Positions 28,379 through 64,000 of a DNA stretch of 64,000 nt are shown one piece after another. Source of the DNA: Pseudoscleropodium purum (taxonomy: Eukaryota; Streptophyta; Bryopsida; Hypnales; Brachytheciaceae). The notes under the pieces are model-generated. The model did no database searches. It saw nothing but the letters and a program-made list of their open reading frames with translations, and was not told the origin of the DNA. The stretch covers positions 39,432,001 to 39,496,000 of the forward strand of contig OZ017797.1 in assembly GCA_963969395.1 (NCBI GenBank). The letters are read 5' to 3'. Every line of letters starts with the position of its first letter. The first letter of the stretch is position 1. The translations under genes were made by a program, and so were the position numbers.

Positions 28379-31300
28379 ATGCCTGCCAAAGACCGTGTCT
28401 CCTATTTCTACGATGGTGAGCTTCCGTAGGGTTTCGATTTCGTGATGTGTTGGTGGATCGTTCCGAGTTTGGGGAGCTCAGAGTGTTGGTGCATGGTTGG
28501 GGTTTTGTTGGTTTGTGGGTTTGCTGGGGTTTGCGGGGATTGTGGGTTTAGGGTTTCCACCTGTGATGTAGCTGAACGCTGAAGTTCTGTCCGAGGAGGT
28601 CGCTTAATTTTTTTCACGTGCCTTTGGATCGGATGTAGCAGCAATATTGTGTCGGTATGCCTTTACGGCGTGAGCCTATTTCTACGATAGTGAGCTTCCG
28701 TAGGATTTCGATTTCGTGATGTTTCGGTGGATCGTTGTGAGTATTGCGAGCTTGGGAGCGCTTGTGTGTTGTGGAATTTGGTGAGGTTCCGTGGGTTTGT
28801 GGGTTTGGTGGGTTTTGCGGGGTTTGTGGGTTAAGGGATGGTGGTGGTTTTCCGGAGGTTAATGATTTCCATCTGTGATGAACCTGAACTGTTCAGTTCT
28901 ATCCGAGGTCGCGTAATCGTTTCACGTGCCTTGGATCGGATGTTGCAGCAATGTAGTGTCGGTATGCCTTTTACGGCGTGAGCTTTAAAGTATGTTTTGG
29001 ATTTCTTATGTGTCATGTCGCCATTTTGAGTTTCTGTCCATTCAGGGTTTTAGGGTAAGTAGTTCCAGTGTAGGGAGTTTGTGTGCTTGTTTCTCAGCCT
29101 TTGGATATTGGAGCAGTATGGTGTCTGTGTGCTTGTACGGAATGAAATCTTGAGTTTAGTTTTGTGATTTTCTTCGGTGGGATGTCATGAGAATTGGTCA
29201 CCGTTCGTTCAGGGGTTTTGGGTGAGTATTGTTTCGGTTTTGCGAGCTTGTTTTATCATCCGTTACCATGATGTTTTGTGGGAGTGTTGGATTATATTTT
29301 GGTGACGAGAGGATTCGTGATGTGCAGGGGACGTGGGGAGTGTGTACTATGGGCCGAATCACCCCATGAAGCCCCATCGGCTCTGCATGACTAACAGCCT
29401 TGTCCTTGCTTATGGACTCCACAACAAGATGGAGATTTACGTAAGTGCTCTTACGGCTGAGAACTCGTGTTAAAGTACTTCAAGGGTGTGTGTAGCGCAA
29501 CTGTGTGTGGAAGTTGTTTACGTACTTCAAATTCGGAGATCAGCATGAATTTAAACTCTGCTATGATTACTGGTCGCCTAAGAGGAGTAATGTGCTGGAA
29601 ATAGCTCCCATATAAGTTGTTTCATTAATAGTGACTCTATTCTCTCCGTAATCCTATCCTCTATTCGTATCAACCATTCTTCGTTCAACAATGCCATTTT
29701 CTTCTTATCTCGATAGTGTCTCTAAATAGTGTTGCCTGGCAGAGATTGTGAAGTTTTTGTTATGTTCAACTTGTCACTTCTCACGGTCCAAAACCTTCAT
29801 ATTCTCTATAATGTCATCTATCAAAAAAAACCTTTCCATAGGTCGTTGTGTGCAGCATTTGTTTCTGGGGGTGCTTTGACTTGAACTGATCCTTTTTCTT
29901 GTGTTCTCTCTGTTTCAGCGACCTCATAAAGCGTACCCTATGGAGATGGCGCAGTTCCATTCCGTTGACTACGTGGAGTTTCTCGGCCGAATTACCCCTG
30001 AATCGCAGGACAAGTATGCTGCAGAGTTGATAAGATGTACGTTGTCATAGTTTCGTGATTGTTTCCCTAGAATCTGTGTGTACCGAAATTCCAGGGGGAG
30101 TTCAATTTGGCTAGATCATGAGGTTGAAGGTGATAGGTTCGACTTATTTTATTACCCTTTGGCTGTTGTTCATTCAAAATGCAAGGATTCAAACATCTAT
30201 CCAGATTTATCATAATCATTTGATCAATTTTGAAAACGTTGATGTTTTTTGTTATCTGATGATAAATTGGCTTGATTGATGACTTACAGATAACATGGGG
30301 GAGGATTGCCCAGTATTTGACAACCTTTTTGAGTTTTGTCAGATATATGCTGGTGGTACAATTGGTGCGTCCATCACTCCCTACGTTTATGAATGCGAGA
30401 AATATGTTTTGAAAGTTACTATTGTAATAGACTATTGGCCTCCATGGTGGATTTCCTGTTTTCATCTTGGTCCGTAAGGGTTTAAGTATCGCATTGCCAT
30501 ATACTTAGGTCGATATCTCTGACGATTTCTCCAGTGCATGTTGTGTAAATTCGCTCATACTTGGTGGGGTCAACATCATGCTTGTTGGATACAGATGCGG
30601 CGCATCGTCTGAACCACGGTTTATGTGATATTGCAATTAATTGGGCTGGTGGATTACATCACGCAAAGAAATGTGAAGCCTCTGGATTCTGTTATGTGAA
30701 TGATCTGGTTTTGGGCATCCTGGAGCTTTTGAAGTATCATGCTCGAGTACTGTACATTGACATAGATATCCACCACGGAGACGGAGTAGAGGAAGCTTTT
30801 TATCTCACGGACAGGTACCTTGTATAGGTTTACAGATTTCACATTTTTTCTTGCCAAGCTCTTGTTATTTTTAGCTTCTAAGGGACAACTATTTCATGGT
30901 TTAAATTGATGGTTTGATTGATCGGATTTTGAGAAATCTAATTTAGACACGGCCAAATTTTACGTCACCAAGATTAGTGAAGAACATCGCTTGTTTTGTT
31001 CTATAGATATATAAAGGCCTTTCTGTACTGGCTGCACGCTTTCTTTGTTAGTGCATGTAATTTTCAGCCACAGAATTCACGCTGGGTTTAGTGTTACTCA
31101 TGCTGGATCTTGTTGATGTTTTTGTTTGTGCAGAGTGATGACTGTCAGTTTTCATAAGTTTGGAGACTACTTTTTCCCAGGCACTGGGGATGTAAAGGTA
31201 AATTTATCAGCCTTATCATGGAGTCAGCATCAACGAAACTTTGAGATTCATCATAGGATTTGGACTGAGATTTTAAAGAGCTGTGAGAGTATTGTTATCT

Positions 31301-35863: not shown

Positions 35864-38800
35864 TCATGCAAGAAGTTTTCCACATACAATTCCTCCAAAT
35901 ATAAATGCACCCACCCAGATGTTGGAGTGAAATCTATGAATCAAAAAACAAAAACAATGTCACATACCATCTCAAGGAGCCCATGGTAAGCTAAAGTAAA
36001 AATTATAAGTTAGTATATGATTTCTACACAATACTCAACACAAGCAATTTGAAGGCACATCCATCCACCACTTAAAGAGAGACCATTGTTTTTGACATTG
36101 CTATTGACATTTGAGACTAGATTGAAAAAGGGTGGAAAAGAACAATCTTTTTGGATAGTGATGTAGGATAGCTAATCCTAAATTACATTGTCTAAAGAAG
36201 AATAGGAGCATGGTTTCTATTGTTAAAGAATGTTGATTTTGACATTGCTTTTGACATTTGACACTAAATTAAAAAGTGTTGAAAAAGACAATCTCTTTTG
36301 ATAGTGACCTAGAATAGCAAAGCCTTAAACCGTCCAAACAAGGATAGGAATATGGTCCCTATTGTTAGAGAGTGATGTTTTCAATATTGCTATGGACATT
36401 TAGATTGAGTTGAAAAAGGGTTGAAAAGAGAATTTTTTTTTACAGTAATCTAGGATAGCTAAGCCTTAATTAAACAACCTAAATAAGGATATCATCAAAG
36501 TATCGTTACTATTATTAGAGAATATTGTTTTTGACATTGCTATTGACATTTGAGATTAAATTGAAAAAACATTGAAAAGAGCAATCTTTTTGGATAGTGA
36601 TCTAGGATAGATAAGCCTAAAACCATCCAAATAAGGATAGGAGCATGGTTCCTATTGTTAAATTGGGTCTTACGAGCAATTGTTCAAAGAGGATTCCAAA
36701 TTCACTTTGAAGTCTTTTGGAATATAAAATGGATAAAATGTAAACATTTTGAACATTGAACATAGATGTTATTAAAACCAATCTTAGACTTTTATGTTCA
36801 AAAGCTGTATAATTTAGGCAAGAATCTTATAAAGGTTGATTTTTCTAAAAGATTGTAGTTAGGTGTATTTTCTAAGGAGAAAATAGTTTAAAATACTTTA
36901 ATCATCACTAGTGATGACAATTGGACATTTTAGCATCATAGCAATGTCAAATTTCCATGGTAGTGTTTTTTAGATTAGTGAGTAGTTTAAGATTGTTCTA
37001 ATTTGCATCAACATTTTACATCTCTATCAATAACAAAGAAAATTACAAAATTGCTTACTTGGCTACACAATCAATAGGGTTGTTGATGTCTAGAGAAGTG
37101 ATTTGCCAAGCCACATGGATTGCCGAAGCTGCAACACCTACAAAGAATGGCCACCCTATTGTATGGCAATGTACTAATTCAGTATTCAAGAAACATAATG
37201 CAATATTTGTAATTACATTCTACACGATAACCTAAATATCAAATCTGAATTTTAGAATTTGACAAATCCATACATCAATTTTGATACTTTAAACATTCTA
37301 TTTCAACAAAATTGACTACAATATTGCAATTCAATCTTCCCTTATAAAGAAAAGACACCCCTACCTCAGGTCATCAATCAACCTTTTGTACCTACTTTTG
37401 TGCCCATCAATTACACCCAATAGAAAATTCATTTTGACTCATTTTTTCAAATCTAGACTTATGGCATGAATAATATATCAGTGCATTCTCAAAATATAAT
37501 TTATATTTGTTTCTAAATGATAGAATTCAAATCAACTCCAAAGTTTCTAAGATTCAAATTGGTGCTTAAGGGTTTTACGGTTTTAGGGTCTACCAAGTGT
37601 TGTGATGTGCCCCACGTTGCCAAGGATGGCAACAAATGCAACACCAAAGCCAGCAAGCCAAAACTTGGTATCATTGCCCAATAAAATGGCCATGGACTTG
37701 ATTCCAATATTACGATCATCTTTGATGTCTTGATGAGCGTAGATTGTTTCATACACAAGGGTCCAACACCAAGTAGCAAAGAAAACCAAAGTAGGAGGGA
37801 GTGCAAGGGGACCAACGACCATGGGACCTCTCACGGCAACCCATCCTAGGAATACACCCCAGTTGATTGCCAACCCCAACACCACAGGCGTCTGTATGTT
37901 ATAACAATGAACATTCAAAACATTATTAATCTGGAAAAGCGAAGAGCTATCAACAAGGTACTTAGCCAATAATGATCTGAATTTTGGACCAATAGGTGTA
38001 TTTTTCATTTTTGCATTGATATGGAAAGTCATCCATCAACCTTTTTTTGGAATTAGCACATCCTTACACAATTACCTAAGGTCAACCATAGCTGACAAGG
38101 TTCTTTTGCATCCTACAAAAATAGAGACTTTGCTAGCCAAGTGTCCCTAGGCATTTGAAGTATACTCTACCCATAAGAATATTGAAGAGGAATATTTCAT
38201 TCATAGAATATGGCTTAATCCTTATCTAAGTAACCGCCCAGTGGATCAAGAGTGTCCCTCACATAGTCTAGAAGTTCAATTCAAAGTTCTATAACTCTTG
38301 CATCCAATGTTCAAATTCAATAAAATTTGTTTGAAAATCTACATTTCTTTTCTAGAAAGTTTGTGTAGTAAAATTTTGAAATCAATCCAAGATGTGTTGA
38401 TTTTTGGGAAGCCAATCAAAGTTCACGAGTTCAATTGGAATTCACCAAACAACATTTTGATTGTACAATTTGGGGGGCTTGTATCTCCTTTATTGAATGT
38501 TTTCTTCCAATCTAATTTATTGAATTAGATTTCGCTTGAAGCCTAATTGTTGTGGTGAAAATTTCATGTCAATCCATATTATTATGAATGTTTGAGAGAA
38601 ACTCAAAGTTTAATATCCAAACATTTTTGGATTACAATGAACTTTGGTGTCATGTTTTTTCTTTATATGGTGTCTACTTTTAGTTTTTTGGGGGAAAGCT
38701 GCGCAGATTAGTTTAGTTTATGTGGTTAAAATGTCATATCAATCCAAGGAGTTGTGAATGATTGAGAAGAATTTTAGTAGAAATTTCAGCCTTAGAGGTT

Positions 38801-41800: not shown

Positions 41801-44800
41801 CACTACTAGAAATGCACGACCAAAACAACAAAAATTCAACTAATTTATGTTATTTGGGATAGTAGAATGACCATTTTGCAACTTTCTATGAAAATTAATA
41901 AAATGACATTCTTTCTATTGATTTGGATAGTGCAATGACCAAATCAACAAGTTTTTGTTGAATTTGAAATCTTTTTGAAATATTTGAGAATTTAAGCATA
42001 ATGATTTAAAAAAAAATTAATCATGTAAAATTCAGTCTTTTTTCAATTCAGCAGACTTTGGAGTCCATTCTCGCATAGTAGAATAAAAACTTTCAAAAAA
42101 CTGAGAACTGCGAAAAGTTGTAAATTCAAGCTACCTTTCACCTCCAAAAATCTGTTTGTGATTTAGATCCTCCAATCAAAAGTTATAGACAAAAATCAGA
42201 GAGTAGTTAGAAACATTTATTTTGACATTTTCAAACATCCTCTCTGATTTTTATCCATAACTTTTTATTGGAAACTCAAAATCACAAACGGATTTTTGAA
42301 GGTGAAATTTAATTTGAATTTACAACTTTTCTTAGATCCAAGTTTTTTGAATAAATATATTCTACTATAACTAAATGACCTCTAACGTCTACTGAAAATA
42401 CAAAACACATGAAAAAACAATGAAAAAATTAAATATATAAAATTCTAGTTAATGTGTGGTCACTTAAGTATTTAGGTGGTTTAGTAGTTGGAACCTTGGA
42501 CCTCCAAAATGAGGTTCAAGGTTCAAATCCCCTTAGAGGCACCTGCCCGTGTGGTGGGTGGCTTAGGTGGTCTTTGCCTACGTGGCTGGCCACCTAAGTG
42601 GCTGCCTGGGCAAGAAAAAAATTAATTTTAAATGGGCATTGCCAAAAATTAATTAATTAAAAAAATAATAATTTAAATTTAAGTTTTTTGATGTGTTCAA
42701 AACAAAACAAAAAATCAATAAATTTCAATTTGATTTTGTCCAAAACATCACCTCTAATATGACTAAATCATTCAACAAATTACCAAAACTTTCTCTAGCA
42801 TTATATAATTTTAAACTCTGATCAGTTTTCAATTCTTTTGATACCATTCACCATAAAGATGAACTTAAAATGTTTTCAAAGAGAGTTTATCACCACAAAT
42901 ATGCACCATCCTATCATTTAAAAGTTACATTGAATGAACCCATTGTAGGCACAAGTTTGGAGTAGCCCATTGTGAGTAAAATTTCACTTATATACTTTAA
43001 AATTGGTAAATATTCATCACAAAAAGAATTATGTCTACAATCATGGGGTCACCCAAACTTGTGTTCACAATTGTCTCCCTCAATTCTTCATCTAGTATGT
43101 TGAAGACCCCAAACAACAATTGCACAACATTGGCAATAAGGTTGTAATTTTACCTAAAAGTTGTCAATTGAGAGAGTACCATCAAATATGAAAGTATTAG
43201 AGCTCCCAAAAAAGTCCATCCTTGGAAAGGAGTCACGACACCGGTTATAAGTGGTCGCAATTTAGTTCTCTCCACCTGTAGAAGAATTAAGGTAAAAAAA
43301 ATGTTTAATTGTCAACTTATTAAGAATTACGCTAACTTGTAAATTGACTTCCAAGGTCCATTTTGTTAATGATGAAAAGAATGCTTCATGGACATATTTT
43401 CTTCACAAAATATATAGAGGAACAAAGGTCTAAAAATCTTGATAAAGATAATCCCTTAACAAACTTCCAAGTTTTATATTTTATTAATGAAAGTAATGCT
43501 TCATGGATACATTTTCTTCACAAGACTTCTAATTTAGCAAAATATTGTTTGAATTTTGTAAAAATTGAATATCTTTTTAGACCAATATGGTCCAAATTGA
43601 GATAAAAGTAACATTTTTGTACAAAAAATAAGCAAAAATTCAAAAAATTCAAAAAATGAGTAGACTCTTTTGGATCAGTATGGCATTGAGACAATCTAGA
43701 TGATGATTCAACTACAATAATTAGCAAGTTATGAGCAAAGCCATTATCTGTTTTGAATATTACACTAGTACAAGGCCACCAACAATTGAAGGCACTAAAA
43801 CTACCCTTACTCTAAAGGTTCTAATATATAGTGGCTTCTAAGTGAGGCATGGATTCATGGGGTGATATTCAATTCTTTAATGTGCTCATACTAAACATTC
43901 TAAGTTGAGGATGTCTTCAAAAAACTAATGTAAACCCAAACTTCAAACTTCAAAAAATTCATAACTAATTTTTAAGACTCCAAAAAATCATGTATAAAAA
44001 TGGGTTTCATATTTAGAGCTTTTGCCTAAAACAGGTCTCTTTTATTTTAGAGAGCATGAGGTCAATTTAGGTACACCTGATTTTAAAAATTTTAAAGTTC
44101 ATAGTTTATTTGTGTAATATCCAAAATGCACCTGATATAAAAATCTAAAATCATGTTTCGACTTTCAAGAAGATTCATCAAAAACATCTACACAATTTCA
44201 CTGAATAATATGAACATTGCTCAATTGCTTATTCCGATGCATTTCAATGAGCAAAGATCACACTGCGCTTAACCATACCTTTTAAATAATTGAATTCACT
44301 ACCTATACCAGCAAGATTCAGAGCACCAAAATTGTGACATTCAAAGCACAAAGCTCTAAAATTAAACTAAGAGTGGTAACAATTTACGTTTCAGGGCGTT
44401 CCCCCTCCCCGAAAAGTGGCAATGTCGAGAATGTTCATCAAATTAACGAGTTGACGTTAAAATTACAGGAAGGGCTTGCTAATGATTCTTTTCACAAATT
44501 TGAAATTACATACAAGTGTACGGGTTCAAGTGAACATGCTAGCAAGAGGTCCTGAAGTTGCGCAAGTGCTTACCTTTCCATCAAAGTCCTTGTCGCACAA
44601 GTCGTTGACAGTGCAAGCGGCACTGCGAAGAATCGCAGCCGCAACGGCGAGCAGTGCAAAAATTCTCCAATCAGGCAAACTTCCGTTTTCGGCTGCCAAA
44701 GCGACCCCCCTGCAAGAAAGAAAGAATCAACAATGCATGCATGCCCGAATTCTGTTTCATGCAGGTGAAACGCAATATTAAGCATCATGGTTCAGTAAAT

Positions 44801-53039: not shown

Positions 53040-53842
53040 CCCCTCAATCTACTATTTTCTCCCTAAGAAACTATGATCTTGTTATGTGCTTCAAACTCTT
53101 TTTGTGTCATCAATCTTAGGTGACATCACATTTTTTGGAAGTGCACTTTGCTCAAAGGCTTGGTTAAAATGTCGGCTACTTGTTGTGATCGTACAAACTC
53201 CAATGAGATCCTTCCTATTCTGACATAGTCACGTATTAAGTGACATGTTTTCTCAATATGCTTCGTCCTTCTCTAAAATACTAGATTCTTTGCCATTTTT
53301 AGATAGCTTTGATTGTCACAAAAAATAGTGATGGAATGTGTGATAGTCATGTGAATTTCATCAAATAGATTACGTATCTATATGGCTTCTTTTGTAGCTT
53401 CTGTAAGAGCCCTATATTTAACCTTTGAGTCAAACTGTGCAACTTCATTTTGAAGTTTTCTTTTCCAAGAAGTTGGAAAACTACTAATACTCGTTAAGTA
53501 CCCTAATGTTGATTTTCACTCATCAAGATCACCTAGGTAATTACTATTTGAGTATCGTTATGGCATAACTTCTCCCCCTTTCGGATAGTAAATGGCAAGT
53601 TGAAAAGTACCTTTAAGATAACAGAATATGTAAATAGCAGCATGAAGATGTACTTGTCGATGTGCAGATGTAAAACGAGTAACGATTCCAACTGCAAAAG
53701 CTACATCGGGCTTGGTGTTCGTAACATGCAAGAGTTTTCCTACAGTTGTTCGATAATAAACAACATCGGGTGGATCAAGTAGAAGAGAGTCCATATGAAG
53801 TGATAATGTACTGTAGAGGGTGGTGTCCATCAGAGTTGACAT
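53040..53842 (-). pseudogene. Ty1/copia pol remnant (RT end and RNase H)
   Basis: The minus strand reads the end of reverse transcriptase and RNase H of a copia element: YRTTVGKLLHVTNTKPDVAF, VHLHAAIYIFCYLKGTFQLA, then YLGDLDE-stop-KSTLGYL, ALTEATKEAI, DNQSYLKMAKNLVF and [17 protein letters not shown]. At least three in-frame stops interrupt it, replacing residues usually Arg or Trp. Gag, protease and integrase are absent. It lies directly upstream of its LTR. Confidence 0.85.
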
Positions 53843-54095
53843 ATGTAGATGTATTTAGATCCTAATTGGATTATCTAAATAAATAGTTTAATTCATTCCT
53901 AGGAAAGCAATTATAATAGGAATACTTCTACAACGACACTAAAACAAACCAATAAAGAACTAAAACACACAAGGAATGCATACTTCCAACTAACATTAAT
54001 TTAATTCCTTACAATTTCTATAATAATTACTAAATTAATTATTTACTCCTCTCTTAAAACACCAAGTTAAATATCACCCCTTTTGGAATTGATTT
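53843..54095. other. Left flank of the gypsy insertion, part of the right-end element
   Basis: Contains one exact CCNANTNGG motif (53871) and a near copy at about 54103, so it may belong to the same element as 60502-64000. No gene. Confidence 0.4.
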
Positions 54096-54146
54096 TTAAT
54101 CTTCAATTTGGACTCCTTCATCTTTCATTGGATCTCCATCCCTAGC
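54096..54146 (-). pseudogene. 3' end of the split CCHC ORF
   Basis: This is the continuation of the ORF at 60773-60502 after removal of the gypsy element and one copy of its duplication. It reads RDGDPMKDEGVQIED and a stop at 54096-54098, in frame with the part beyond the insertion. That frame continuity shows the retrotransposon landed inside this reading frame. Confidence 0.6.
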
Positions 54147-54341
54147 TGTCAGACGGAGATGAGGAGCCAATAAGCTATGAGAAATAAGTAAACATATCAT
54201 TAAAGGATAAGATGCTCAGTGGAGGACACTACCCCCCATTGGCCTTAAATACTACTGGGCAGGCCTGGCAGTTGGCTAACTACCAACTTCCACGGCTATA
54301 AGCCTCTCTTAACTGTCACAGTAATAGGTCTGTTCCTAACA
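54147..54341 (-). repeat. 3' LTR of the gypsy element, full length (195 bp)
   Basis: Starts TGTTAGGAAC and ends CTGACA on the minus strand, with the CTAGC duplication just beyond. It is preceded by a G-rich polypurine tract. The chromodomain frame terminates inside it. Confidence 0.88.
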
Positions 54342-57300
54342 TTACCCCCCCATCTAGGCCCCGTAGGTAAGCGAGGGGCATCAGGATGACACTGATGGAA
54401 CTCGCGAACCTTAAGGGGCGCATTTTTGAGATGCGTTGCTGGTTCCCAAGAGTCCTTGTGTTGGTCGTACCCTTCCCATGCTACTAAATACTGGAGTTGT
54501 CGGTGTCGGCCGAAAATCCGTGAGTCGAGTATCTGGCGGACCTCCCACTCGAGATCGCCTGCTGGAGTGACAACCGAGGGAGGGGGAAGTCGTCGGCGAC
54601 CTGGAATGGTATCCGGTCGGTAAGGCTCCAACACCGCAACATGGAAAACGTCGTGGATGCGTAGTGTAGTAGGCAGCTTCAACCGATATACCAAATCAGA
54701 GAGCTTGCCGATAACTCGAAAGGGACCAAGAAATTTTGGACCTAACTTTTTTGATGGGGATGTTGTCGCGATGTGCTCACTGCGGAGAAGGACGTAATCA
54801 CCAACCTTATATTTGGGCTGATCCTGTACTTGGCGGTCATAGAATTTCTTCGCTTGGTCTCCCGCAATCTGGATCATCGTCTTAATCTCTTCGTGAACTT
54901 GTTGTAGCAACTGGACACGCTCCTCCGCAGCGGGTACTGTAGATGTTGCGGGAGAAGAGAACGAGAGAGTCGGATGGTAGCCGTAGGTGGCATAAAATGG
55001 AGAATATCCAATAGCCGAATGACAAGAATTGTTGTACGCGAATTCCGCTACTGGAAGGAGGTCAGCCCAGTCGTCTTGGCGTTTCGTCATAAACATTCGA
55101 AGAAGTTGCTCCAAATACTGATTCAGTCGCTCAGTTTGGCCGTCTCACTGGGGATGAAACGCCGTTGTAGGGGCAGATTGAATTCGTAAAAGTTCATGTA
55201 GGCGGCGCATAAACTTTGATACAAAAACCGGACCGCGGTCAGAGATCAACTCCGTGGGAGTGCCATGGAGTTTCCAAACATGTTGGAGATATAGGACAGC
55301 AACACCTATTGAGTCCGTCGCTTCTGTGGTAGGTATAAAGTGTGCTAGTTTGGTATTCTTATCCACCACCACCATGATCATGTCATAACCATTGCTTATT
55401 GGTAACTTGACGATAAAATTAGTAGATACCTTCTTCCATGGTGCGTCCGCCGCTGGAATTGGTTGTAATAATCCATAGCGAGGATGTCGGGTTGGCTTGG
55501 ACCACTGACATGTGTCACATCCATCCACATACCGGTGTGCATACTTTGTAAGAGATGGCCAATAAAACGTTCGAGAGATGAGCTCAACTGTCTTGGCACG
55601 CCCTAAATGACCAGCAGCTGGGGCGTCGTGGCGAGAACGGAGGATCTGCCGTTGGAGTTCTTCGTCGTCAGGTACCATCATGGCATTTCGAAAATAGAGT
55701 ATGCCGTCACGCAAAGAGTAATCTTGTAGTTGACGTCGAATATGGCTCGGGGCCTCTCCAGCACCAGTTAGCAGAAATGTATGCACTGGTGCCAATGTCC
55801 TATCTAGTGGAGTAACTTCCTTGATCCTTTGAGCAATGTGGGCGTCGTTCTAAACTGGTTGGACCGCTTCCAACATAGCTAGGCGGAGCAAGGGCCATAT
55901 ATTCCCATGGGAACCATCTGGGGTATCAAATCGACGAGAGAGCATATCCGCCCGACTGTTCAACGTGCCAGGCCGATGCTCGATGACGAAGTCATAGGCT
56001 GAGAGTAGCTCAGACCACCGTGCTTGACGGCGATTAAGAGTTTTCTTTGTCATGAATTGCTCCAAGTTCTTATGGTCAGAAATAACTCGAATTTGATGAG
56101 GAGAGCCTTCGAGATAAACTCGCCAGTCTTGAAATGCCAACACGATACTGAGGAGCTCTTTGTCATAAATGTCGTAATTCTGCTCCGTAGCAGTCATCTT
56201 GGAGCTACGATACGCACACGGATGTAAATATCCATCCTCGCCGTATTGGGAGAGTATTCCTCCAGTAGCCATATCAGATGCGTCGGTCTCGACCACAAAT
56301 GGCTTGTTGAACTGTGGATGAAGCAGCACTGGGGCTTCTGTAAAACGTTGTCGTAGCTCATTGAACGCCTTTTCTGCAGTATCTGACCATATAAAAGGTT
56401 GATGTTTCCGAGTCAGCAAAATCAAGGGCACAACGACTTTAGAATAGTCGGCAATGAATCTCCTGTAGAAATTTGCAAATCCCAGAAATGCCTGCACCTC
56501 ACGGAGATTCTTCAAGGTGGGCCAATCTTTAAAGGCGGTCACTTTGTTCGAGCACATCTCTAGTCCACGACCTGAAACTATAAGGCCCAAAAATTCCACA
56601 GAGTCACGGTGGAATTCACATTTGGATAATTTGGCGTAGAGACCATGTTGTTGAAGGCGGCGTAATACTTCTCGGACAATTGGGCGATGTTCCTCCAAGT
56701 TTTTTAAGAAAATAAGTATGTCATCTAAATAAATGACGACAGAGATATCCAGTAAGTCCCCAAAAATGGTCTGTATGTGTGCCTGAAACTGGGCCGGGGC
56801 ATTCGTGAGACCGAACGGCATGACCAGGTATTCATAGAGGCCATACCGGGTCTTAAAGGTTGTCTTATACTCGTGCCCCGCCGCCATCCGCACCCGATGA
56901 TATGCTTGTCGTACATCTAATTTGGAGAATACTGTTGCTCCGACTAGTCGATCGGTGAGTTCCGGAATCAACGGTAAAGGATATCTGTTCCGGATGGTCA
57001 CTCGATTGAGATTTCAGTAGTCGATACATACCCTAAGGGTCCCATCTTTCTTCTTCGCAAAAACAATTAGAGCAGAAATCGGGGACTTCGATTGCTGAAT
57101 CTATCCCTTGCCAAGGTGCTCGTCAAGATAACGATGCAATTCCTCCAACTCTGCTGGAGACATCGGCCGAAGACCCATATTCCGGGGTTCTTGTCCCTCT
57201 TTGAAATCTATCTTCATATCCGACAGCCTGTGTTGAGGAAGCTCATTTGAAGCCTCCTCGCTGAATGCATTCTCCTAATCTTGGTATTCCATGGGAAGTG

Positions 57301-58060
57301 TTGCCTTGGGTTTTGGTGAGGCTTCCGATAACTCGGAAATCTCCATCATAAAAATTTCTGCACCTTTAGTGCTTTGTCGGAAATTCGGCTGAGATACCAA
57401 AGTATGTCAATTAACCGTCATATTGGACATAATCGGAGGAGTGTGGAAAACCTGGTCCAAAGGGCTGGTCCGTGATAAACAATGACCTCGACAAAAATCT
57501 GATGCAAAACGGACCGTCCCGGTGGCCCAGCGGATATCCGGGTCATGGCGCCATAGCCACGGAGTGCCCAGGATGCAATCATATCTTCCAGTGTTGGTAA
57601 TATCAGCCGTGAGGGTTTCAGCATGGTCTCCAATCATTAGCTGAAATGTTGCCTCATGAGTAACCAAACCGGTGTTGATAACACGCCCATCAATGACCCG
57701 CACCTCCCGGGGTTCTGCTTTCGTAATGATGGTCGCTGCACTAGATGCAGCAAAAGTTGGATGAACAAATACGCCTGTCGCTCCCGAATCAACCATGAGA
57801 GTTGTTGATTGTCCATTCACGAGTCTTGCCAGCATTAAATGATTCCCAGGATCGGCAGTGGCTCTGAGGTATAGCGGCTCGACTTCTGGTGTTGCAAGGT
57901 CTATAACCGCCTGTTTATAAGTCAAAGTCTTCGCCGTTTGTGGAGGGCCCGGGTACTGAGCAGGAGATGTCAGTCTCGAGCCGCATCTTTTCCCGAGTCG
58001 CCGGCGTCTCCATTTAGAGTGGCAGAAAACGACAGAGGTCAAGAGGGGTTGGTCGGACAC
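54296..58060 (-). pseudogene. pol: gypsy pol: protease, RT, RNase H, integrase, chromodomain
   Basis: One frame from about 58060 to 54296, overlapping the end of gag. Protease: VDSGATGVFV (about 57800). RT: AYHRVRMAAGHEYKTTF, VMPFGLTNAPAQFQ and the catalytic YLDD (about 56730). RNase H: TDASDMATGG (about 56275). Integrase: zinc-binding His-His-Cys-Cys (HLGRAKT...CDTCQ, about 55600-55500), then the core with LISDRG and DGQTER. Chromodomain: VRQILDSR...YLVAWEGYD...SWEP (about 54540-54440). Six in-frame stops lie near 57412, 57276, 57102, 57017, 55854 and 55145. The first catalytic Asp of integrase appears as Asn (TNFIVKLP, about 55415). No intact polyprotein can be made. Confidence 0.92.
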
Positions 58061-59019
58061 CTAGTCCGAATATGTCCCAGTTGTCCACAACCCCAGCAGC
58101 GTCCCTGCCGCTGATACTTTAGACGCTCAGCCGGTGTCTTGGCCATGGCGGTGGATTTTTGGGGAACAATGGCAAGTGCATCCAACTCCATGGGAACCGG
58201 GCCAGAGGCGGATGGAATACTTGAGAATCGGTGACCCTGAGATGTTTCCGTAACGGGGAACTTGTTGGTCTGCTGACGCATAGCCCATAGACGCTCGTCA
58301 ATCCGGGAGGCTCTAGCCATCCATCCCTGGAGTGTTGAAGGCGGCTCCTCCGATGCAGCCACCGAGTGTAGAATATCATTCTTCAATCCCCGGCGAAACG
58401 TTGAAATGAGTGCCTCTTCGCACCAGTTCACTTGCGCCGCCAGTTCATTGAACGCGGCTATATAAGAAGTCACCCCGGCTGTCTGCCGTAGTTCGTGCAA
58501 ACGATCTTGAGCGTTGCCTTTCCGGTCAATCTCTCCAAATACCGCTACCACTCCTTCGCGAAAAGCATCGTATGATATCAGGAGGAGATGGCTGCGACCT
58601 TCATCGAGGGCTTGAAGAATAGGCATGGCCCATCCTTGTGCCGACCCCGTCATATACGATAGCGTGCAGTTGACCTTTTGGCGCTCCGTCTTATAGCCGG
58701 TCGGGTCACTATCAAATTGTAGACGAAGTTGAGCTAGCCAGCGGTAGACATCTCCGCCCTTCTTGCCGGAAAACTCCTTTGGGCGAGCCACTTTTGTTGC
58801 TCTTTGGACATGATTGTCGGGTTGAACCGCAATGGTCGGTGGTATTGGAGTCGGTTGAGCGCTATGTTCCGCCAATTCTTGATGCCGGTATTCTTGAACA
58901 ATTAATGGAATAGCGGCATGTAACCCCGTCTGTATTTGTTGCTGAATAAACGCAGCCCAATCTCCTCCGACGGCTTCCGAGTTTGCTAGATCCCTACCGG
59001 GACTCCCCACGTGTTCCAT
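58039..59019 (-). CDS. gag: gypsy gag, open, with CCHC zinc knuckle
   Basis: An uninterrupted 326-residue frame. The middle is a typical Ty3/gypsy capsid domain (YRWLAQLRLQFDSDPTGYKT, RLHELRQTAG, YIAAFNELAAQV). The end has one zinc knuckle, CWGCGQLGHIRTRC (Cys-x2-Cys-x4-His-x4-Cys). It is the only retrotransposon frame here that stayed open. The protease frame begins within its last codons in another register, suggesting expression of pol by frameshifting in the ancestor. Confidence 0.9.
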   Translation of the reverse strand: MEHVGSPGRDLANSEAVGGDWAAFIQQQIQTGLHAAIPLIVQEYRHQELAEHSAQPTPIPPTIAVQPDNHVQRATKVARPKEFSGKKGGDVYRWLAQLRLQFDSDPTGYKTERQKVNCTLSYMTGSAQGWAMPILQALDEGRSHLLLISYDAFREGVVAVFGEIDRKGNAQDRLHELRQTAGVTSYIAAFNELAAQVNWCEEALISTFRRGLKNDILHSVAASEEPPSTLQGWMARASRIDERLWAMRQQTNKFPVTETSQGHRFSSIPSASGPVPMELDALAIVPQKSTAMAKTPAERLKYQRQGRCWGCGQLGHIRTRCPTNPS

Positions 59020-59319
59020 GAAGCTTTGTTTCTTTTGAGTCTTTTATGCTTTCGTCGAATTCCCTCAAGAACGTTGGGGTCGGCGGCCGGTAACTGGTGG
59101 GTACCGCGGCGACTGGGCCGGGTAGCTGCTTGGCCGGCGAGTACCGCGGCAGACCGGTTGCCGCTTGGCTCAATCGCCTTTCCACGATTTTCCTTCTGTC
59201 ATCCGCCTCGATCGGATCTGAAGGCTTTGCTTCACACAGTGGTTACCTCTTGCTTTCTCCCACAGCCAGTCACTTGTTCTCTTGTGTCTTTGCTGCTCTG
59301 TTTCTGTAACCTACTTCCT

Positions 59320-59940
59320 TCAAGCTCGGCGAGGCCGGACATTCCTTGTTGGTGCAACGGATGGTTCAGCAGACGTTCTTGCAAGGACTTGCGCCGTTTT
59401 TTCCACCACGTACAACAGCATTGTCTCAATAAAGTGATCTAAAGGTGAGAATTCCAGTTCATAATCTGTGCCGTATTTTCCGCTAAAATTGAAATCAATG
59501 ACTCGTTCTTCTGTGATTCCGTCCAGCTGCTCTTTAAACATTTATAAATCTTCAAGGCGATTGGTGCCGCTGATCATAGATTGTGCTAACGCGACATGGT
59601 GATTTTTGTACCAATACTTAGAGAGAAGTCCTTCAGCCTCGTTTATCGTCGCTCTCATTAATTGTTTCCGGAATTCGAGTTGCAAATGGTAAGTGCTCAT
59701 CCGGCGGCTCGGCATCGCTCCGTCTAGTTGCTTCGTTCAAATTTCTCCTTGAGTGTAGCTCTCAGGGTCTGAAACGCCGCATACTTGGCCGCTGTCCATT
59801 GCAGTGGGAGCATGAGGGCTGTGGAAATCGCGAGTAGGAAGCTTCGTGCTCCTCAAGTCCCCCCCCCGAAGGAAGGTTCCTTCAGCAGCAAGCAGGGTCT
59901 GTCCGGCAGGGAGCAAGCGGAGTCCAGCGGTCATCTTCAA
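59320..59940 (-). pseudogene. Extra ORF in the gypsy leader, two stops, unknown
   Basis: Between the 5' LTR and gag, one minus-strand register stays open for about 205 codons except for a TGA at about 59738 and a TAA at about 59540. The peptide includes KYWYKNHHVALAQSMISGTN, EERVIDFNFSGKYGTDYELE and ETMLLYVVEKTAQVLA, and looks like a real, folded sequence. It matches no gag, pol or env motif that I know. Ordinary chromoviruses have no gene here. It may be a captured host gene fragment. Confidence 0.5.
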
Positions 59941-60144
59941 GAAGCTTCCTGAAGTTCATCCGTCTCCTCTCTCAGATCAGTGCATCCGCCTCCTCTCTCT
60001 CGAACTAGTGCATGTATCAAATTGAATCATTGCATGTCGCTCGTATCAGTGCATGTGTCGGATTAGTGCATGTCTGGAATACTCAGGCTCGTTGGGCCGA
60101 ATAATGGTTCTGCATTCTCCGGAGTTGTCACTCGCCGGATTGCG

Positions 60145-60278
60145 CCTTGTCTCAGCATTTTTCATTGAACCACAAGCTCAGCAGTTATCTTATCGACCCC
60201 CACAATTGCACCTTTGCTTCAGCATTCCTTCATTCGGACCATGAGCCCAGCAACCATCTCATCGACCCCCACGATCGC
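60145..60278. repeat. Tandem duplication, two units of about 67 bp, in the gypsy leader
   Basis: Units 60145-60210 and 60211-60278 share YTTCAGCATT, TTCATT, AGCNCAGCA, ATCGACCCCCAC and the ending ATYGCA. Nearby (59980-60080) the words TCAGTGCATG and TTAGTGCATG recur several times. Confidence 0.75.
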
Positions 60279-60350
60279 ATTCTTAATGCACCTGCATGAA
60301 ACGTTCCTCACGACCTCTCAGAAATCCGTTCGAGGACTGAGCATAATGTC

Positions 60351-60501
60351 AACATATCATTAAAGGATAAGATGCTCAGTGGAGGACACTACCCCCCATT
60401 GGCCTTAAATACTACTGGGTAGGCCTGGCAGTTGGCTAACTGCCAACTGCCACGGCTATAAGCCTCTCATAACTGTCACAGTAATAGATCTGTTCCTAAC
60501 A
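60351..60501 (-). repeat. 5' LTR of the gypsy element, truncated (151 bp)
   Basis: Aligns with 54191-54341 of the 3' LTR with few differences, starting TGTTAGGAAC. It stops at GATATGTT, where the 3' LTR continues for 44 more bases to CA. No tRNA primer-binding site follows; the next sequence is unrelated (GACATTATGCTCAG). Confidence 0.85.
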
Positions 60502-60773
60502 CTAGCCAAATTGAACTGTTGTTGATGAAACAGATTCAACTCTTGCTCCCACTTGGCTTGCTGTAACCTTCAATCTCCTACTCCAAAAAGGGCATGTCAC
60601 TTCTCCAATTGAACTTTGTCTCCCATATAGGGAACCGCTACTTCTTCCTTCACCAGCTTGGCTTTATCTTCTTTAATTCCACAACTTGGATTTATGTGAT
60701 TTTTATCACTGCACCACTGACACTTCTTCTTTCCTGAATTGGAGCTCGGACTCTTACTCTCATTACTCTCCAT
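60502..60773 (-). pseudogene. Decayed ORF with CCHC zinc knuckle, split by the gypsy element
   Basis: From an ATG at 60771-60773 the minus strand reads MESNESKSPSSNSGKKK and then a zinc knuckle, CQWCSDKNHINPSC (Cys-x2-Cys-x4-His-x4-Cys). Next come KAKLVKEEVAVPYMGDKVQL, two in-frame stops (about 60596 and 60570), and QAKWEQELNLFHQQQFNLA. The frame crosses the gypsy insertion point and ends at 54096. A knuckle preceded by basic residues is usual in retroelement gag proteins but also occurs in nucleic-acid-binding proteins of DNA transposons. It borders the motif array, so it may belong to the same element. I do not recognise the family. Confidence 0.55.
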
Positions 60774-63700
60774 GACTCATTCTACTTTGCAACTCCTAAT
60801 TGAGTATAATCAATTAACCCTCATGCCTTGAATATCCTCCCTAAATGGATCTGACTGGCACTCTTAAACACTCAAGTAGGAATCGACACAACAAAGAAAC
60901 TAAAAACTGCAAATTAACTTTCACCTTTAGAGCACTCACAAATAATTCAGACCTTCATACATATCTCCAACTTCTCGAATTGGATCACATGATAAATCAT
61001 TCATACAACCATTAATTTCCAATTCAGTATCACTTACGGACTGCCAAACTCCAATTTGGCAAAATCAGCACATTGATTTAGTTCATAACTTGTAAACACA
61101 CATACATACCATTCACCAATTTGCTTAATCCATACTTTATTCAGCCGAATAGGTGACATATCATCATTACAAACATGATTTTCCTTTCCTTTCCTAACTG
61201 ATTCACTCCAATTAGTTCACTGTTCTAAAATCTCCCACTCGGACTACACAATTTCTGCACCCAATCACCTTTTATTAACATATAATACCAATTTGGCTAA
61301 ACAGTAATCACAACCAAATTCATCTCATACTCCAAAAATTCACTACCAGATTTCCATCATAACATCCTAATAGGCTAGCATCATCATGCATAAATCCTAA
61401 TAGGACTAAATCATTCAACTTCCATAGCCATCATTCCAATGCTGCCTCACAACCACCGATTAGGACTAAAATTCTTCAACTGCCACTCGCTCATAAACCA
61501 AATTGGACTTCACGCCCACCACTACAATCACCAATTCAATTAAAAGAACTTCCACTTCCTCCACAGGAACAAGTACAGACAAATAAAAACACACACGACC
61601 GATTAGGACTCTCACAAATAAACATATACAAAACCAAATAGAAAAATAAAAACGCAGCCACTCAAACTGGGACTCGCACTAGACTCTCTCAAACAGTGGG
61701 TCCCTTCCAAATCGGTAAACTCTGCCTTAAATCCTCAAACCAGGCGGTTCCTTAACCAATTTGGAAACACCTCAAAACTCTCAAACTGCCAAATAGGAAC
61801 CTCAAACATAACCGCTATTGCATAACTGCACGTATAATCCTAATTGAAAAACGACCACAACTCCAAATTGGTTAAAAGACCAGACAGACTTAACCAAGAA
61901 TAAGAACACATGACATTCCAAATCGGAATCACCATCCTATTCTACCAATTAGGATCCTCAACTTCCGACTAGGTTGATTCTCGACATCAATTCACAACTC
62001 ACTCCTGCATACTCCGATTTGGAAATAAATACACAGCAATGACGACCCAAGTTGGTTTATTAACATACAAAATCACCCATTTGGAACACCAAATCAAAAA
62101 AACATAACCAAAATAGCACCAAATAGACACAAAAAAAAATGCAAAAATAAAATCCTATTAGGTTGTTTACAGCATAGGAGTGCAATCAGTGAGTTGCATG
62201 TCAACAAGGCATTTTTTAATATAATGATGGTGAGACATCATCATGCCTTGAGTATTGTAGATGAAATGAATGCTAAGATAGAGTGATAAATTGCCAAGTA
62301 CAGTCATGTAGAAGGCCTAGTTGGTTGTAATCTTTGAATTTTTGAATGTATCTTTTTGGGTCGTATGATTATGTTTTGTGGGTTTTTGTGTTATTTGTTT
62401 ACCAATTTGGTCATTTTGAGGGGTGTTTATATGACATGATTTTAGTTTCCAAATGGGATTTTGGGGAGATCAGTCGTCTGTTGGGTTTTGGTTGAATCAA
62501 GTCAGTGGATAAATGGTAGTTGATGTCCAATTTGGAATTTTGTTATATGTCCAATTCAAGATGACTGATCTGAATGGGAAGGTTAGGCAATTGCTAATTC
62601 CTAGTTGGATGGTTGAAGTTTCAATTCCAAATGGTATTGGTTTATAGTGTGTGTTTGCCAAGTCGGTTAGTGAATGCAGGTGGTTGTGCTGCCTAGTTGG
62701 TTAAGGAACCGTTGGTCTATCCTATATAGTGGATCATTCCAATTTGGTTTGGCACCTAGTGTCGAAGAGTGTCCACTGCGAGTCCCAGTCCAAGTTGGTT
62801 GCATATGTTTTTGATTTTTGGTGTGTGTGATTTTGTGTGAATGTTTGATTGTTTGTGTGAGTTCTAGTTGGGAGCTGAATTTGTTAGAGTGAATGGCATA
62901 AGTCAATCCTAGTCGGAAAGAAGTGCAATGTGTGCACTGTGCAGGGAGAATTCGGTTTGAATGTGGAGAATGGTTCGAAGTGGGAGAAACAAGTTAGAGT
63001 GAAGAATGTTTGTCAATGTATGAGTGTGGCAGCAATTCAACAAGATTTAATATTTCCTAGTTGGAGAGAGTGAACTTGCAGGAAGTTGAAGTGATTACCA
63101 AGTGGGTGAGAAATTGACGAATTGTGAGTGAGGAATTCAAGTTGGTATGATGAAGATTTAGTTAGTGAGATTGTGTTATGGAAGCTTTGTAGAAGCGGTA
63201 GTTGGTGGATAAGAAATTCAAGGCTAAGTCCTAGTTGGAGATTAAAAGAAAGGACTTAGAGACTATTAGAGTGCAGGGGAGTTAGTAAACATTCGAAGTA
63301 TGGAAGTTGGAAACTTATTGTAGTAACGGTGATATTTTCACCAATTCAGCATTATATGAAAAGAATTATTTGTCAAATTGGTGTTCAGTGTGTGTGGGAG
63401 ATATTGTGTTACAAATCGGGAATGAAATTTGTGTAGCACATCTGCACATGTGATTTATCTAGTCCTATTTGGAGTATTTTAGTAAAACTAAAGTCTGGTT
63501 AATTTCCAAGTCGGAAGTTGGTGTATTGTGGTGTCATTGTAGTATGTGGGAATTAGTTGGTTGTGTTTGAAATTATGAATGCAAGTCCAATTTGGTTGTG
63601 TATGGAGTGTTATGTGTGTGGCTGTATGAATTTCAAGTTGGTCTGTGAGTTCAAGTTTGCCGTGTAAGTTGCCGAATCAAAAAGCTGTATGATGGTGCAA

Positions 63701-63990
63701 AGTGGTTTAGTTTTATGTGAAGTATGAGTCCAATTCAGAGAAAAAAGGCTGTAGTTGCAGAGCCCAAGTCGGAGTTGAAAGATTAGACAGTGAAGATGCC
63801 AAAGTGGTGAAAGATTGGGACCAAAGTGAAAGGGAAATGCTGAATCCAATTTGGGAGATAAGTGGAATACATAATAAAGTATTAAAAAAATAAAAAAAAT
63901 AAAAAAAGGAATAAATAATTAATAATTTTAGGAATAAAAGAATGAATTTAAGGAACAATTGTCCTTGCTTGGTGTTTGTGTAGGCCAAGA
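60774..63990. repeat. Array of the palindromic motif CCNANTNGG within a large inverted repeat
   Basis: Exact CCNANTNGG occurrences start at 60548, 61051, 61145, 61235, 61288, 61366, 61396, 61456, 61498, 61599, 61707, 61756, 61789, 61863, 61918, 61945, 61965, 62014, 62047, 62076, 62154, 62316, 62402, 62449, 62527, 62600, 62658, 62692, 62739, 62790, 62908, 63056, 63098, 63230, 63464, 63506, 63587, 63764 and 63846. Common forms are CCAATTTGG, CCTAGTTGG, CCAAGTCGG, CCGATTAGG and CCTAATAGG. The sequence between motifs is not repeated. Left of about 62160 the plus strand is C/A-rich, right of about 62310 G/T-rich. The reverse complement of the left part aligns with the right part at TTCCAAATGGGATTTTG, TTGGTTAAGGAACCG and GCGAGTCCCAGT, in order. 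No gene is recognisable inside. Confidence 0.85.
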
Positions 63991-64000
63991 AGGCGTAATT

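Follow-up and report, generated by a model that had tools for sequence, protein, structure and literature searches.

A palindromic motif array carried by Ty3/gypsy retrotransposons of Pseudoscleropodium purum

High-copy palindromic motifs are known from the long terminal repeats (LTRs) of Sireviruses, where one element can have up to 32 of them; additional copies precede the extra gene, and a few lie at its start (PMC2829016). VANC proteins act on VANDAL elements via dense short motifs, 9 bp long for VANC21 (PMC5735166, PMC10398659). The reiterated short motif of CACTA elements is thought to bind an element-encoded TNPA-like protein (PMC2613891), and several sites of DNA-binding proteins lie in the long inverted arms of Galileo/Foldback elements (PMC3688188). 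Here we describe a dense array of the palindrome CCNANTNGG in a stretch of 64,000 nucleotides from Pseudoscleropodium purum (contig OZ017797.1, positions 39,432,001 to 39,496,000), further referred to as the window, and trace it to a group of related Ty3/gypsy retrotransposons. The element-wide CCNANTNGG array in these elements probably represents predicted sites of a dimeric sequence-specific DNA-binding protein, kept by selection over the whole length; we assign this reading a probability of about 0.65.

The array is of the same kind as the Sirevirus motifs, being a high-copy palindrome in the LTRs and in the internal region beside an extra gene of a plant retrotransposon, in another superfamily. 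The Sirevirus palindrome is of the CGG-CCG type and belongs to the LTRs of Ty1/copia SIRE elements (PMC2829016), whereas here it is CCNANTNGG in Ty3/gypsy elements. New are the motif itself, its even spread over the LTR and its continuation through gag and pol; a limited literature search met no printed precedent for such an array laid over gag and pol. With VANDAL elements the present one shares a dense short motif confined to one transposon family, which in VANDALs diverges between families. Those are DNA transposons, however, with a non-palindromic motif in one orientation, in tandem repeats and mainly in non-coding DNA (PMC5735166, PMC10398659), whereas the element described here, known from its sequence, is an LTR retrotransposon in which a palindrome without a tandem unit occurs in coding regions too. 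The likeness to Galileo/Foldback elements is one of appearance, the arms in the window being two separate LTR insertions and not terminal inverted repeats (TIRs) of one element. CACTA elements belong to another class, and neither CACTA ends nor a 3-bp target site duplication (TSD) is present here.

The array in the window and its carriers

An earlier reading of the window from its letters (the sequence-only reading) had reported 39 exact copies of a symmetric motif in 60548-63854, accompanied by many one-mismatch copies. The count was reproduced. The window contains 43 CCNANTNGG matches (39 in this interval), against a mean of 10.35 (standard deviation, sd, 2.88; maximum 19) in 100 dinucleotide shuffles of the whole window. 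The left half of the array contains 21 copies vs 0.24 expected under a first-order model, and the right half 18 vs 0.23, that is, some 80-90 times the composition-based expectation of each half; at most three copies appeared in 2000 first-order simulations per half. One-mismatch copies are indeed in excess in both halves (17 vs 4.6 and 11 vs 4.2). When dinucleotide-gap-dinucleotide patterns (gap 0-10, at least eight copies) were ranked, CC-N5-GG was the top pair in each half (25 vs 2.4 and 19 vs 2.2). CCNANTNGG is palindromic, as had been said, and the array is no ordinary tandem repeat, since only short, low-scoring tandem arrays (score at most 51) were found in 60506-64000. The spacing of the motifs is slightly more regular than chance (coefficient of variation 0.61 vs 0.85; 1.2% of controls), and helical phasing of this spacing showed no clear period. 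Such a density is not general in this genome: 4-kb stretches at five arbitrary places contained just two CCNANTNGG in 20 kb. A three-motif pattern found 79 stretches in viral contigs, with at most 11 motifs in 3.3 kb; in the seven stretches inspected by eye the dense copies mostly had repeated flanks.

The DNA between the motifs had been described as unrepeated, which proved wrong: the two halves are diverged inverted copies with opposite strand skew. GC skew in 1-kb steps is -0.45 and -0.42 in the left half vs +0.49 and +0.50 in the right one, with the flip at about 62.2 kb. End-to-end alignment of the left part with the reverse-complemented right part scored 1845 vs 1310 (sd 66) in controls that keep the motifs, and 1623 vs 1231 (sd 56) when the motifs were removed. 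RNA folding of the stretch gave 905 cross-arm pairs vs 585 (sd 59) in eight controls.

The array consists of two solo LTRs that point in opposite directions inside an old Copia-like element; they are related but strongly diverged, with 135 bp between them. The features are as follows.

60548..63854, no strand: the array as reported, 39 exact CCNANTNGG, divided between the left LTR (21) and the right LTR (18)
62307..64000 in the window and on to 64086, plus strand: right solo LTR, 19 motifs in all; TSD AGTCA at 62302-62306 and 64087-64091
60507..62171, minus strand: left solo LTR, larger piece (5' part); TSD side GCATA at 62172-62176
53844..54146, minus strand: left solo LTR, smaller piece (3' part), with a motif at 53861; TSD side ACATA at 53839-53843
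54147..60501, minus strand: degenerate Ty3 chromovirus inserted into the left LTR; TSD CTAGC at 54142-54146 and 60502-60506
62172..62306, minus strand: Copia-like pol between the solo LTRs, 135 bp, named Copia by eye from its translation
53040..53843, low end approximate, minus strand: Copia-like pol left of the solo LTRs, named by eye; the other part lies beyond 64091

Hence the extent given in the sequence-only reading was right for the copies in 60548-63854 and too narrow for their carriers, which occupy 62307-64086 and 53844-54146 plus 60507-62171. The TSD pair of the left LTR, ACATA/GCATA, agrees in four of five bases. Rejoined at the TSDs, the Copia-like pol reads in one frame, stop-free across both insertion sites; from this and the nesting it follows that the Copia-like element came first, then two LTR elements, now solo LTRs, and then the chromovirus in the left one. 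The nested chromovirus has a chromodomain match and contains no CCNANTNGG in 6.4 kb. Its right LTR is short of bases near the inner end compared with its left LTR, and 161 of 170 aligned bases are identical. In the multiple alignment of the LTR family described below, the left LTR is about 46-52% identical to the others, and the right LTR shows 75% identity with group A and 91% with L089.

The collinear inverted arms, the central switch of skew and the folding had suggested a foldback transposon or a long-TIR Mutator-like element (MULE). This candidate was ruled out: each arm has a TSD of its own, Copia-like coding sequence lies between the arms and on both sides of them, and most of the relatives fetched from the genome are single LTRs. 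A foldback or long-TIR DNA transposon, or the subterminal repeats of CACTA or hAT elements, can thus be considered practically negligible as an explanation. A 5-bp TSD of a two-arm composite, noticed by eye, is merely the homologous ends of the two LTRs.

The LTR family and the internal regions

The 313-Mb genome, in which the window is C41:39432001-39496000, was searched, giving 71 further matches, several of them possibly in one locus. From the loci behind these matches 19 were fetched, and their LTRs together with the two of the window form a set of 21. A query with a single LTR gave at least 63 matches; the family is larger than sampled, since just 40 of 303 candidates were scored in that search. 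The array is present in all 19 fetched loci, and most of them have common ends, both of which the sequence-only reading had proposed to look for: relatives of the right half are blocks of 1.6-2.3 kb, most ending in TGTAGA...TCTACA, and 13 of the 19 are flanked by exact 5-bp TSDs (two of these 13 have TA instead of TG). Among the six lacking an exact TSD, L096 and L098 adjoin internal retrotransposon sequence, while L090, L092, L094 and L103 are without an exact pair. L099 and L105 have flanks and TSD in common and are therefore one insertion.

Each of the 21 LTRs carries 14-29 motifs (463 in 40.3 kb) vs 0.28 expected per LTR, spread evenly over the four quarters (135, 103, 107 and 118). The composition of all 21 is extreme, with G at about 25-28% and C at about 10-13% of the sense strand and a skew of 0.33-0.46. 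The motif does not require this skew, and its CC runs against it.

Two loci reveal the internal part. In L098 the LTR is directly followed by a primer binding site and then by Retrotrans_gag and a CCHC knuckle; L114, whose internal part is 96% identical to that of L098 over 2.8 kb, has matches to gag, CCHC, reverse transcriptase (RT), RNase H and integrase. The Pfam order RT, RNase H, integrase in L114 is that of Ty3/gypsy, and the carriers are Ty3/gypsy retrotransposons. On C48, the LTR of L098 matches 16649318-16651228 and 16681296-16683027, with a pol match (97%) between them at 16675071-16676938; this LTR-pol-LTR order spans 34 kb, other nested material included. The sequence-only reading had likened the array to the subterminal transposase-binding repeats of CACTA and hAT elements. 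That likeness does not hold, because the carriers are LTRs with TG...CA-type ends, 5-bp TSDs and the internal domains just listed; CACTA or hAT TIRs with a 3- or 8-bp TSD were not found, the termini being LTR ends with 5-bp TSDs.

The primer site is tRNA-Asp-like, which we take to agree with Athila. In the seven L114 segments scanned, no Chromo match was obtained, and no second RNase H, a Tat feature, was found, the reading frames being broken there. By elimination the lineage is inferred to be non-chromoviral and Athila-like; its placement among the larger plant clades relies on these two negatives and on the scheme of PMC6317226. Athila-like non-chromoviral Ty3/gypsy elements likewise have gag-pol followed by an extra 3' ORF (open reading frame), 5-bp TSDs and long LTRs (PMC6317226, PMC11728184). 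They differ in that the accessible parts of these papers contain no such motif array and in that the extra ORF here has no Pfam match; according to the same parts, no function has been established for the extra ORFs of plant LTR retrotransposons. The extra ORF of the present element is a 255-aa frame upstream of the 3' LTR in L096, with counterparts in two of the six stretches searched, L115 (38% identical) and L116 (36%). The ORF next to it gave sub-threshold matches only, several of them to coiled-coil families.

L114 and L096 adjoin on C46. Two further observations concern these loci. Very different LTRs (L114:1043-2402 vs L098:3819-5729) stand before the same primer-site position, with insides 96% identical; we attribute this to LTR exchange or recombination between families. 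Between integrase and the 3' ORF region, L114:9494-10000 and L096:1-284 are almost pure A+T and match themselves at 64-bp steps.

The motif is not limited to LTRs. L098 contains 20 CCNANTNGG in the 3.5 kb after its LTR vs 0.86 expected, and L096 contains 34 in the 3.8 kb preceding its LTR vs 0.78. Density per kb is 5.4 in gag, 3.4 in pol, 8.9 in the 3' region and 9.6 in the LTR. To account for the coding content, codons were shuffled among synonyms within each open segment. Eleven segments of L114 and L096 together contain 40 copies vs a mean of 11.8 after such shuffling (maximum 20 in 500). Four of the 15 segments were left outside this sum: two of L114, cut out of frame, and two from L098, which is a near-repeat of L114. 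The seven L114 segments alone have 20 copies vs a summed mean of 7.4. By frame (0/1/2) the motifs in coding segments number 15/18/7; some 3' segments may be non-coding, and one of these has six of its seven copies in the same frame.

Related elements were sought with a pol query, which matched three elements along its length (74-75%) and others, mostly in part, at 64-75%. In seven of the nine relatives fetched (L115-L120 and L122), 65-76% identical to L114 in pol, CCNANTNGG ranks first among the 64 palindromes of the same layout. Synonymous shuffling left an excess in L115 (12 copies vs 5.5, maximum 10) and L116 (11 vs 3.4, maximum 8). Aligning pol of ten elements places 42 copies in 16 columns, six of which are common to three to eight elements and ten of which are occupied in a single element; thus some pol sites persist, and others are gained or lost. 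The motif belongs to the whole element, that is, to the LTRs, gag, pol and the extra 3' ORF in all three frames, and not to the LTR alone.

Constraint on the motif and its possible reader

Divergence was measured by comparing two agreeing copies with a third, group A comprising 12 copies after L105 was dropped. Since the triples overlap, the comparisons are given without P values. The percentages of differing fixed, free and background bases, respectively, are 3.9, 8.7 and 7.9 within group A, 7.0, 15.2 and 19.2 from A to C, 21.4, 29.3 and 35.5 from A to B, 23.8, 27.4 and 35.7 from B to A, and 32.8, 54.4 and 46.2 from A to the left LTR. The fixed bases diverge more slowly than the background in all five comparisons, at 0.36-0.71 of its rate, and in every one of them this is true of A, C, G and T taken singly. 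Hence the motif looks kept by selection, in line with the earlier suggestion that the motif itself has been maintained.

Absence of function, with the motif spread through mutation bias, gene conversion or slippage, is quite unlikely in view of these rates. The extremely skewed LTR composition does indicate that mutation in the family is unusual. The motif, however, contains CC, the rarest LTR base, its fixed bases evolve slower than background whichever of the four bases is considered, and its flanking sequences were not multiplied together with it.

With a preference for A and T (86 and 95 of 160) at free positions 3 and 7, the fuller site reads CCAANTTGG. These facing positions have no extra complementarity (54 vs 62 expected), as for a DNA dimer site; together with the symmetry this fits the protein-dimer site that the sequence-only reading had supposed. 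Such a result speaks against a signal in the genomic RNA that would serve packaging, dimerisation or the control of translation, since free positions facing each other show no added pairing and perfect dyad symmetry would be of no evident use in single-stranded RNA. Although the motif lies in parts expected to be transcribed, coding ones included, and the LTR sense strand is strongly G/T-rich (skew 0.33-0.46 in 21 of 21), we regard an RNA-level role as rather unlikely.

Host transcription factors constitute a possible explanation, in which a cis element was amplified to drive transcription and the coding copies are internal enhancers or a by-product. LTRs are the expected place for such sites, Sirevirus LTR motifs being thought regulatory (PMC2829016), and the LTR density of 9.6 per kb is the highest of the regions measured. 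For a promoter array, however, the even spread over the four LTR quarters (135, 103, 107, 118) would be unusual, as would its continuation through gag and pol beyond codon shuffling. The sequence-only reading had also allowed for a cluster of host-factor sites. Since the array moves with a family of retrotransposons, a cluster confined to the present locus is excluded, whereas host factors reading the motif in all copies are compatible with the data.

The explanation that we favour is that CCNANTNGG would be read by a dimeric sequence-specific DNA-binding protein and that the element would be selected to keep many sites along its whole length. The reader may act on the whole integrated copy or on cDNA, by coating, chromatin opening or anti-silencing; this would fit better than an ordinary promoter enhancer, because the sites run along the entire element. 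The first candidate for the reader is the protein encoded by the 3' ORF of the element itself, the second a host factor. By analogy with VANDAL and VANC, we tentatively propose, at modest odds, an element-encoded reader with a protective role, its sites overlaid on coding sequence and LTRs and kept while about a third of the bases changed between families.

Several observations weigh against selection for binding sites over the whole element. Single open segments are often at chance level under synonymous shuffling, and L117 shows no excess (4 copies vs 3.0, maximum 7). Two of the nine relatives, L121 (one copy) and L123 (two copies), are not enriched. Some of the pol sites shared between elements may be held by the protein sequence. 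The free bases are not simply background-like, lying above background in two comparisons and between fixed and background bases in three. The 255-aa ORF of L096, the candidate reader gene, has no Pfam match. The LTR before the L114 primer site is unlike the group-A LTR in L096, so that these two loci may be parts of two elements. Finally, conservation from motif to motif between the arms of the window was rejected as mostly alignment bias: eight of 21 left motifs aligned to a motif (7-8 of 21 vs 4-6% for decoys), whereas controls with motifs re-inserted at random had a mean of 5.4 and 17 of 200 reached eight. Motif-blind alignment of the arms paired three motifs exactly vs 0.4 (2 of 200 controls) and seven within 4 nt vs 2.9 (0 of 200); under stricter gap settings these numbers were two vs 0.3 (9 of 200) and four vs 2.4 (39 of 200). 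Given this bias, the case for conservation rests on the LTR family.

Other features of the window and implications

Elsewhere in the window, 42047-42396 is a 350-bp self-inverted repeat (76%) resembling a miniature inverted-repeat transposable element, without the motif, and 36078-36662 and 28401-28983 are diverged direct repeats, about 75-85% alike. An Rfam scan of the window gave no matches at the gathering threshold, and a protein search with its Kelch-like ORF gave none of 211 candidates.

The locus teaches that two solo LTRs in opposite orientation can mimic a foldback transposon until their relatives are seen. The motif is lineage-wide, dense enough for mapping by chromatin immunoprecipitation (ChIP) or DNA affinity purification (DAP), and overlaid on coding sequence; it thus provides a substrate for testing whether such retrotransposons encode sequence-specific proteins that mark or protect the element itself.
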